35,203 nt of DNA from Gammaproteobacteria bacterium (GTDB taxonomy: Bacteria > Pseudomonadota > Gammaproteobacteria > SURF-13): the NCBI GenBank assembly GCA_030655395.1, contig JAURVQ010000113.1, positions 1 to 35,203 of the forward strand. Direction: 5' to 3'. The number at the start of each line of letters is the position of its first letter. Position 1 is the first letter of the stretch. The position numbers and the translations under genes are program-made. Shown here piece after piece: positions 3,848 to 7,148 of the stretch. The notes beneath the pieces were generated by a model. It made no database searches. It was not told the origin of the DNA and saw nothing but the letters and a program-made list of their open reading frames with translations.

Positions 3848-4441
3848 ATGACGCAAGATGCGCGCTTCCGCGCGGCTATTGAACGCATGGACGCGTTCAA
3901 CCGCGCAGACCCCAACCACGAAATCGTCGCGGGCAAGGAATGTCCCAAGGAGCTGCTCTACGCCGAGCGCATGACGGCATGGCTTGCGCGCCTCGCGCCG
4001 GATGCGTCCGAGGCGCTGCGCCTCGCGGCGCGCAGCCAGCACATCGGGCGCTGGACGATACCGCGCAGCCACTATCCGATGGACCGGCGCGGCTATCACC
4101 AGTGGCGCACCGAGCTCGCCCGCTTCCACGCCCAAACCGCGCGCGGGATCATGCAGGACACAGGCTACGATGAGCCAACCATCGCCCGCGTTGAAAATTT
4201 ACTGAAAAAGACCAACCTCAAAAACGACCCCGAGGCGCAACTGCTGGAAGACACCGCCTGCCTCGTCTTTCTCGAACACTATTTTTCCGCCTTCGCGCAA
4301 AAACACGACGAGCAAAAACTCATCGAGATTCTGCAAAAGACGTGGAAAAAAATGTCCGCGCAAGCGCAGCAGACGGCGCTGACGTTGACGCTTACGGATG
4401 CCGACCGGGCATTGATTGAAAAGGCGCTATCAGCTATTTGA
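3848..4441 (+). CDS. DUF4202 family protein
   Basis: 197 residues resembling the DUF4202 family, which is often mislabelled glutamyl-tRNA synthetase in databases. Visible features are His24 near the N terminus (DPNHEI), LRLAARSQHIGRW around residues 57-69, and a C-terminal LLEDTACLVFLEHYF segment around 135-149. The spaced His, Arg-x2-His and Glu-Asp positions recall an HD-domain-like metal fold, but no catalytic function is established. It follows the DoxX gene by 16 bp on the same strand. Length is normal for the family. Confidence 0.75.
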   Translation: MTQDARFRAAIERMDAFNRADPNHEIVAGKECPKELLYAERMTAWLARLAPDASEALRLAARSQHIGRWTIPRSHYPMDRRGYHQWRTELARFHAQTARGIMQDTGYDEPTIARVENLLKKTNLKNDPEAQLLEDTACLVFLEHYFSAFAQKHDEQKLIEILQKTWKKMSAQAQQTALTLTLTDADRALIEKALSAI

Positions 4442-4501: not shown

Positions 4502-4550
4502 GCCTGACGTTAAAGCTCAGGGGCGCGCCCCTTGGAGCGAAGTGTTAGCT
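4502..4550 (-). repeat. Degenerate attC-like recombination site (integron cassette end)
   Basis: Read on the minus strand, the segment starts with AGCTAAC (R'' box RYYYAAC, one deviation), continues TTCGCTCCAAG, has the central palindrome GGGGCGCGCCCC (4519-4530), then TGAGCTTTAAC and ends with GTCAGGC (R' box GTTRRRY, one deviation). GCTC and GAGC pair outside the central palindrome, leaving unpaired bases on one arm as in folded attC sites. The 49-bp length is slightly short for attC. The stop codon of the adjacent gene falls inside it, as is usual for cassette genes. A simple terminator is the alternative. Confidence 0.55.
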
Positions 4551-5183
4551 GTGTACTTTCGTCCATGAAAACATGCATCCCTTAACTTGTGTGCCAGCGG
4601 TGCAACTTCGTAGTAGAGCTTACCTATCTCATCGAATGTCTGGCCGGCGACAAGTCGTGTGAGCCCAGAAGCGACTAGGTATTGCATCCAGGGTTCTTCT
4701 GACTTGTCCGGGGGGTTTTGAGAGGTAAGCAGCTTGTGAAGATCATCGCCAAATGCCGAGTCGACCGCTTGGGAAAGGCGACGAAGCTCTTCGCTAGAAA
4801 TAACGCCGTCGACATAGGCAAGGAACAGATGGGACAGCAATATCGGTTTGTCCAAGTCGGTTACTCGTTCCAAGACAAACAGCAAAGTCTCTCCAACCTT
4901 TTGTGCCTCGTTATCTCCCCCACTCATTTTTTTCTTGAGCTTTTGCTTTTGTTCCTCAGTAATGTCTTCAAGGTTCTGTACGAACCGCATGAGCTTGATA
5001 GCAAATGCACGGTCGCGAATGGCATCTGCGGCCTTACAAATTTTTATTGCGGTTCCGATAAGAGGAACTTCGGCAAGAACGTCACCGTGCATTAATGCAT
5101 CAGCAATAACTTCGCTGCTCTCTAGCGCGGCTTCGACAATGGGGCGATCTTTTGGAGTGGGCATATCATTGACTCGGTTTTAA
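4508..5183 (-). mobile_element. Putative solitary integron gene cassette
   Basis: Inferred limits run from the G/TT crossover in GTTAAAAC (minus strand, 5184/5183) just after the htpG stop to the crossover within GTCAGGC at 4508. The unit holds one gene read toward its attC-like end, with a 19-bp leader. No integrase or second attC site is in the window, so this would be a cassette inserted at a secondary site rather than part of an array. Confidence 0.45.
4517..5164 (-). CDS. Unknown cassette-borne protein
   Basis: 215 residues, not assignable to a named family by eye. It is mostly helical and soluble: a moderately hydrophobic segment (LAEVPLIGTAIKICKAADAIRD, about residues 30-51), a charged Lys/Glu-rich helix (about 70-82), then FVLERVTDLDKPILLSHLFLAYVDG (about 96-120) and a C-terminal alpha-helical region. 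Similar IPLIGTIVK-type proteins turn up as accessory hypothetical genes in bacteria, but no function is claimed. Base composition is visibly more AT-rich than neighbouring genes. The ATG has no clear Shine-Dalgarno sequence and lies about 20 bp from the inferred cassette boundary; the stop lies inside the attC-like site. These points suggest lateral acquisition. Confidence 0.8.
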   Translation of the reverse strand: MPTPKDRPIVEAALESSEVIADALMHGDVLAEVPLIGTAIKICKAADAIRDRAFAIKLMRFVQNLEDITEEQKQKLKKKMSGGDNEAQKVGETLLFVLERVTDLDKPILLSHLFLAYVDGVISSEELRRLSQAVDSAFGDDLHKLLTSQNPPDKSEEPWMQYLVASGLTRLVAGQTFDEIGKLYYEVAPLAHKLRDACFHGRKYTANTSLQGARP

Positions 5184-5189
5184 CTAAAA

Positions 5190-7076
5190 CTATACACCAA
5201 GTTCTACCAGGCGCTGGTTCAGCCGGCGCACAAAGGCCGCCGGGTCTTCGAGCTGGGCGCCTTCGGAGAGTTGGGCTTGGTCAAACAGGATGTGCGCCCA
5301 GTCGGTGAAGCGCTCGTTGTCGGCTTCTTTGGTGATGCGTGCGACGAGCGGGTGCTCTACATTGATTTCCAGAATCGGTTTGCTGCCCGGTATTGCCTGC
5401 CCGGCGGCCTTGAGCAGGCGCTCAAGGTGCGCGCCCATGTCGTGCGCCTCGCTGACCAGGCACGCGGGCGAGGTGGTGAGGCGGCTGCTGACGCGCACCT
5501 CTTTCACCCGGTCGCCGAGCGCGGTCTTGATGCGTTCGATCAGGCCCTGGAATTCATCTGCGGGCTTTTTCTGTTGCTCGGTGTCGCTTGCGCCTTCCAG
5601 CTTGCCGAGATCGAGTTCGCCCTTGGCGACGGACTGAAGCTGTTTGCCTTCGAACTCGGAAAGGTGTGAGGCCAGCCATTCGTCTACGCGGTCGTACATC
5701 AGCAATACCTCGACGCCGTTCTTGCGCAGCAGCTCGAGGTGCGGGCTGTGTTTTGCGGCGGCGAAGGTGTCGGCGGTGATGTAATAAATCTTGTCCTGGC
5801 CCGGCTTCATGCGCGCGACATAATCGGCGAGCGTCACATCCTGCGCGTCGGTGTCCTTGTGCGTGGAGGCGAAGCGCAACAGTTTTGCGATACGTTCACG
5901 GTTGGCGTGATCCTCCACCACACCTTCCTTGAGCACCAGCCCGAACTCCTTCCAGAATTTGGCGTATTTCTCCGCGTCACTCGCCGCGACATCTTCCAGC
6001 AGCGCCAGCACCTTCTTGACCGACGCTGCACGCATCGTTTCGACCACCTTGCTGCCCTGTAAAATCTCGCGCGATACATTGAGCGGCAAGTCGTTGGAGT
6101 CGATCACGCCGCGCACGAAGCGCAGGTAGTGCGGCATGAGCTGCTGCGCGTCCTCCATGATGAACACGCGCCGCACATACAGCTTCACGCCGTGGCGGCT
6201 GTCGCGATCCCACAGGTCGAACGGCGCGTGCGCCGGGACATACAGCAGCAGCGTGTATTCCTGCTTGCCCTCGACGCGGCTGTGCACGTGCGCGAGCGGC
6301 GGCTCGAAGTCGTGTGCCACGTGCTTGTAAAATTCCGTGTATTCGTCCGCGCTGATGTCGGCCTTGGGGCGCGTCCACAGGGCCGAGGCACGGTTGACGG
6401 TTTCGTAGGCCTCTTTTTTCTCTTTGTCCTCCGACGGCAGCAGGATGGGAACGCTGATGTGGTCGGAGTAGGTGCGGATGATATTGCGCAGGCGGAAGCC
6501 GTCGAGGAATTCGTCCTCGCCCGCGCGCAGGTGCAACGTGACCTCGGTGCCGCGCGCTTCTTTTTCGACGGTTTCGATGCTGTAGTCGCCCTCGCCGCCC
6601 GACTCCCAGCGCACGCCGTGTTCCGCAGTGAGCCCGGCGCGCCGCGTCGTGAGCGTGACCTTGTCGGCGACGATGAAGGCGGAATAAAATCCGACGCCGA
6701 ACTGGCCGATGAGGTGTGCGTCCTTCGCCTGGTCGCCGGTGAGTTTTTCGAAGAACGCGCGCGTGCCGGATTTGGCGATGGTGCCGATGTTGTCCACCAC
6801 CTCGGCGCGGGTCATGCCGATGCCGTTGTCGGTGAGGGTGACGGTGCGCTGCTTTTTGTCGTAGTGCACATGGATGTTGAGTTCGCTGATGCCTTCGTAG
6901 AGGGCGTCGTCCGTGAGCGCCTCGAAGCGCAGCTTGTCGATGGCGTCGGAGGCGTTGGAAATCAGCTCGCGCAGGAATATTTCCTTGTTGCTGTAGAGCG
7001 AGTGAATCATGAGGCCGAGCAACTGCTTCACCTCGGCCTGGAACCCCAGCGTTTCCTTGTGCGTCGCGACCGTCAT
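5190..7076 (-). CDS. htpG: Hsp90-family chaperone HtpG
   Basis: 628 residues, close to the E. coli protein (624). The N-terminal GHKL ATPase domain is intact: [14 protein letters not shown] at 37-50 (catalytic Glu37, Mg-binding Asn41), DNGIGM at 83-88, [12 protein letters not shown] at 123-134, and GTEVTLHL further on. The middle domain and C-terminal dimerisation domain follow without breaks. It is a cytosolic ATP-dependent chaperone that remodels client proteins with DnaK. GAAGGAAGG precedes the ATG at 7076. The unknown cassette gene begins 25 bp after its stop. Confidence 0.98.
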
Positions 7077-7115: not shown

Positions 7116-7148
7116 ATTATACTTGGGATCACAGCCCGCGACTTCAAG
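7116..7148 (-). promoter_or_regulatory. Candidate heat-shock promoter of htpG
   Basis: On the minus strand CCCTTGAAG (CTTGAA at 7148-7143) is followed 15 bp later by CCCAAGTA and by TATAAT at 7121-7116. The first pair resembles the sigma-32 pattern CTTGAA-N13-17-CCCCAT; TATAAT is a perfect housekeeping -10, but its distance from TTGAAG (20 bp) is long. It lies about 40 bp upstream of the start codon. Confidence 0.4.

Follow-up and report, generated by a model that had tools for sequence, protein, structure and literature searches.

The locus considered here raises the question of how a 215-aa gene came to lie directly behind the stop codon of htpG, and whether it arrived there as an integron cassette. 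The window, that is, the whole 35,203-nt stretch of DNA that was analysed, belongs to genome G000 and supplies the numbering used throughout. In it, the gene (5164..4517, minus strand) is bordered on one side by the stop codon of htpG, its host gene, which encodes the Hsp90 chaperone (5190..7076, minus strand; Pfam HSP90, 1.6e-132), and on the other by a convergent DUF4202 gene (3848..4441, plus strand; Pfam DUF4202, 3.2e-78). The original prediction took it for the cargo of a solitary integron-like cassette, and the sequence features on which that prediction relied were found in place. The stop codon of the open reading frame falls inside the attC hairpin, and GTTAAAAC starts at 5184, 20 bases ahead of the ATG. 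The gene is more AT-rich than its surroundings (50.0% GC, compared with 61.8% for htpG, 60.3% for the DUF4202 gene and 61.4% for the window) and has no strong Shine-Dalgarno sequence, the nearest purine run being GAG. The proposed attC-like boxes, R'' AGCTAAC (4550..4544) and R' GTCAGGC (4508..4502), are both present.

The attC-type site and the cassette boundaries

In order to judge the putative recombination site, we built a covariance model (R1) from 16 attC sites of arrays located beside integron integrases in related genomes, leaving out the sites of the htpG locus. The underlying alignment carried the R''/R' and L''/L' pairings, with 84% paired cells in its structure and 21-44% when slid. 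With filters off, R1 matched 4550..4502 on the minus strand at 32.0 bits (E 1.2e-5), as the cassette reading had anticipated; this was the sole match above 10 bits in the 35-kb window, the second-best reaching 9.4 bits. When the model was run on 12 class-mates lacking intI, 10 gave no match at E<=10 and the remaining 2 contained clustered attC sites (CALINs), and at six more distant htpG loci no score exceeded about 11 bits. Small attC clusters devoid of intI were seen in two class-mates lacking intI, G007 (contig C2:79568-80417) and G018 (contig C40:16119-17152). Rfam offered neither an attC match nor a fitting family, a scan of 1.1 kb giving chance matches only. The matched site comprises 49 nt in the R''/L''/L'/R' layout, with spacers of 6 and 7 nt as in array sites and almost no central part, and its closest look-alike occurs in G026 (GGCTAACACGTCGCTCAAGGGGACGCGCC...GGCGCGCCCCTTAGCTTTGCGTTATGC). 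A terminator hairpin was also considered at this position and rejected, no run of T standing behind the hairpin.

The exact limits of the insert become apparent upon comparison with two relatives of the same genus (G001 and G002) and three of other genera (G003, G004 and G005), htpG itself being 77-95% identical across five family members. In the left flank, the 60 bases leading up to TAA or TAG followed by TTTTAG/ (the slash marks the crossover point) are 73-92% identical, and the next 60 bases 15-32%, no better than chance; in G002 this flank ends in GCTTAG in place of TTTTAG. The left break, as set by comparison with G001, G002 and G004, is thus TTTTAG/TTAAAAC. In the right flank, G000 and G001 agree at 80% of positions in the first 40 bases beyond G/ and at 45% in the last 40 ahead of it, which places the right break at G/T; the base after the G is T and the next one in G000 is C, part of the host flank, and the flank of G001 reads G/TTAGAT, a perfect R' core. 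Both boundaries therefore coincide with the positions that a G/TT crossover predicts. Since the cut falls behind the G of each core, the cassette proper extends from 5183 to 4508 (minus strand) between two G/ crossover points, a unit of 676 bp that holds one co-oriented ORF of 648 bp, stop included, and little non-coding DNA.

These limits also bear on whether the site is still active. Each core box had been noted to deviate by one base, and the site to be perhaps dead on that account; inactivity is indeed likely, but on other grounds. The deviation in R'' (G at position 2) is harmless, because this base is frequent in arrays, where GGCTAAC is present in intact sites. That in R' (GTC, T-to-C) is chromosomal, because only the first G of the quoted box belongs to the cassette and its last six bases are chromosomal flank; the cassette's own junction core is G/TTAAAA. 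What points to reduced attC activity is the combination of a short 49-nt site, a predicted bottom-strand fold that does not take the attC hairpin form (z about 0) and the missing integrase. Taken together, this suggests that the attC of the htpG locus is probably inactive and the cassette immobile now.

Recurrent occupation of the htpG locus in relatives

The original prediction described a single insertion, a view that the relatives contradict: the htpG locus is a recurrent docking site. The interval between htpG and the DUF4202 gene is filled by unrelated ORFs in four genomes: one of 215 aa in G000, one of 233 aa in G001, one of 286 aa in G002, and a number of short ORFs in G004. The insert of G001 ends in an attC of 20.7 bits; no attC could be recognised at the end of that of G002, and the sites of G004 are decayed. 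In G005, of another genus, two 40.8-bit attC sites and cassettes follow htpG, with other genes between htpG and DoxX, and the contig of G003 stops about 170 bases past htpG, inside G005-like sequence. The two attC sites of G005 (C128:5863-5930 and 6547-6614) have equal scores and lie in a repeated segment, which may represent a tandem duplication or an assembly artefact. An empty site, in which TTTTAG would be joined to TCAGGC or to TTAGAT plus CCTCTTGCCC, was found in none of the relatives, all of the intervals that could be read in them being occupied. As four relatives have unrelated inserts in this position or close to it, the end of htpG looks like a natural second parking place for cassettes.

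The integrase that would have served this place is found elsewhere in the family. Four relatives, G002, G003, G004 and G005, have an intI that scores above the family cut-off, always adjoining mnmG-rsmG-parA-parB (gene names from reading of the translations); in G002, this mnmG integron is located on the same contig as htpG, about 37 kb away. The G000 assembly contains XerC and XerD only and no IntI, an absence that is not absolute in a draft assembly, but the mnmG locus is assembled: on contig C102 (L189, 7912-13735) it holds an attC array with at least 6 matches, the best of 56 bits, together with an attI-like remnant, GTCTACTTCCAG, and no intI. In G001, the nearest relative, the mnmG locus retains an intI pseudogene, namely an 84-residue C-terminal piece with an in-frame stop (contig C34, L212, 155-406). 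Thus, the predicted lack of an integrase or an array near the single cassette holds for the htpG locus, but not for a genome with an attC array at mnmG and scattered attC sites. Isolated or short attC groups of G000 were observed at C32:9314-9383, C38:1066-1537, C49:18956-19805 and C62:34701-34764, with panD also among the scattered positions; some of the scattered groups may be secondary insertions and others broken array contigs. As htpG is separate from the mnmG integron and intI is lost, the cassette in the window is orphaned in an integrase-less lineage.

The left side of the docking site was compared with the attI ends of the family integrons, which read GTCTACTTTACG/ (G002), GTCTATTTCTAG/ (G003 and G004), GGCTACTTTACG/ (G005) and GTCTACTTCCAG/ (G000). 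The attI left arm of these integrons is GTCTAYTTYTAG/, and the left arm of the target site at htpG, GTATAGTTTTAG/ (5184..5195, minus strand, including the htpG stop codon), resembles it. Using a consensus drawn post hoc from four attI sites, 10 of 12 positions fit at the htpG 3' end of G000, a value equalled at 0.08% of background positions; the fit is 9 of 12 in G001 and G004 and 7 in G002, and in G005 GTCTAATTCTAG, downstream of the htpG stop codon, reaches 11. Given such a consensus, and considering that the htpG sequences compared are related, the likeness to attI is suggestive only.

Competing histories of the insertion

The reading favoured by our results, which we regard as very likely, is that an integron integrase inserted a gene cassette, with the 215-aa gene as its cargo, at a secondary site outside any integron, the htpG stop codon (TAG TTTTAG/). 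The attC model match, a homologue of the cargo inside an array (see below) and junctions where insertion predicts them all bear out the cassette interpretation. That the gene should instead be an ordinary horizontal acquisition, beside an attC-like hairpin arisen by chance or as a terminator structure, is highly improbable: although the hairpin consists of a simple GC palindrome and the cargo family occurs outside attC contexts too, the model score is far above background, the breakpoints are exact to the crossover and the relatives carry different inserts. We also consider it unlikely, if less so, that the htpG dock goes back to a second complete integron, with intI and attI beside htpG in an ancestor, which lost the integrase and kept a short array with cassette turnover. 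The attI-like left arm, and inserts in each of the five family members whose interval could be read, would fit such a remnant; however, a tblastn search detected no trace of intI near htpG in G000, G001, G002, G004 and G005, whereas intI or a remnant of it persists on the mnmG platform in 5 of 6 genomes, and the htpG stop codon lies within the attI-like arm.

Within the preferred reading of insertion at a secondary site, the number of captures is a separate matter. One ancient insertion may have left an attC at htpG through which later cassettes were exchanged, a variant to which we give even odds: the perfect R' core G/TTAGAT in the right flank of G001 and the presence of more than one cassette in G005 speak for it, while an attI-like left arm in several genomes would allow repeated independent capture. 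Of lesser plausibility, and put forward tentatively, is the idea that the htpG stop region acts as a second attI mimic, fixed in place and remote from the integrase gene, at which the integrase of the family repeatedly swaps cassettes, the cargo coming under the htpG heat-shock promoter. As for the mechanism of insertion at the secondary site, a circular cassette would have recombined through its own attC with the htpG site and its attI-like left arm, the integrase being supplied in the lineage's past by the mnmG integron; the cassette would have become fixed once intI was lost and would be transcribed by read-through from htpG. Altogether, the gene is an orphan cassette at an attG-like secondary site, probably frozen by integrase loss.

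With regard to transcription, the cassette is co-oriented with htpG, the ORF starts 25 bases past the htpG stop codon, and no terminator-like signal was found between the two; read-through expression from the htpG promoter is therefore plausible, as far as sequence can tell. The best match to a promoter upstream of htpG is a putative sigma-32 type element, CTTGAAG-N13-TCCCAAGT (7121..7148, minus strand). Similar elements precede htpG in G000, G001 and G002, where 7, 8 and 2 of 200 mononucleotide shuffles, respectively, score as well; that of G004 is matched by 58 of 200 shuffles and is not significant.

Cargo and relation to known systems

The cargo protein belongs to no Pfam, PHROG or PADLOC family, and scans with it of genome contigs and viral contigs returned no relatives. 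It was expected to be novel, which is only partly the case, as it is a member of a sparse, uncharacterised family: homologues with 24-33% identity are scattered over G019, G231 and G277, out of 369 class genomes, and over plasmids from bacteria such as Anabaena, Klebsiella and Empedobacter. As a cassette origin would predict, the G019 homologue (L006) lies inside an attC array, since two attC sites (23.4 and 29.6 bits) and a further cassette gene stand directly upstream of it; at the other homologue loci examined, no attC was found nearby. On the Klebsiella plasmid pINF192.5 (IncFIB), the homologue (L205, 2920-3567) adjoins a gene for an FRG-domain protein. Single-sequence structure prediction yielded an all-helical model of low confidence, with a pLDDT of 52. 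In G002, the cargo of the htpG dock (L010, 560-1420) has an AbiJ_NTD4 domain at its N-terminus and is a match to PDC-S32, a defence candidate; likely phage-defence genes can thus be carried by the dock. By analogy, an accessory stress or phage-defence role might be proposed for the 215-aa protein, with low confidence.

Insertion of cassettes outside integrons has been demonstrated in laboratory work, and CALINs have led to the same inference. Loot and colleagues are said to have mapped attG insertions experimentally over a broad landscape. To our knowledge, base-exact natural cassette insertions that recur in several genera at the stop codon of one core gene have not been described, and among the papers searched none joins htpG with integron cassettes. 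In this regard, the htpG locus provides a natural test of secondary-site choice by integron integrases and of attI mimicry by such sites, as well as of a possible gain in cassette expression from the stress promoter of a core gene, and it shows how cassettes can become fixed after integrase loss.

In the terms of IntegronFinder, single and clustered attC sites without an integron integrase are called SALIN and CALIN, respectively (PMC9024848, PMC12690207). With a single attC and an intI-free neighbourhood, the htpG locus has the make-up of a SALIN; the cluster of two or more attC sites lacking intI that defines a CALIN occurs in G000 at mnmG (C102) and not at htpG. A complete integron would have intI and attI beside the cassette, and neither intI nor a fragment of it was found near htpG in the loci searched. 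Like SALINs and CALINs, it is chromosomal and carries an attC cassette with no integrase nearby, but it differs from them in using the stop codon of a core gene, htpG, and in being reused for different cargo by more than one genus. Loot et al. 2024, as cited in PMC12901181, are credited with showing integration at attG sites, outside integrons, and the htpG insertion lies likewise outside attI/attC arrays, where an integrase would have put the cassette; here, in contrast, the site is natural and recurrent, and its left arm is attI-like. In Xanthomonas, CALINs occupy conserved positions apart from the ilvD platform, among them sites close to secF and lamG (PMC12444791), and thus share with htpG the use of fixed loci distant from the intI platform in several species, whereas lineage and locus are different and the htpG site is characterised by single cassettes and base-exact breakpoints. 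The sedentary chromosomal integron at mnmG, the presumed integrase source, has the same attC layout, but the htpG site lacks intI and holds one cassette only in the window. Together, these comparisons indicate that orphan insertion of a cassette at a secondary site is a known kind of event, and that the recurrent, base-exact use of the htpG stop codon for this purpose appears to be new.
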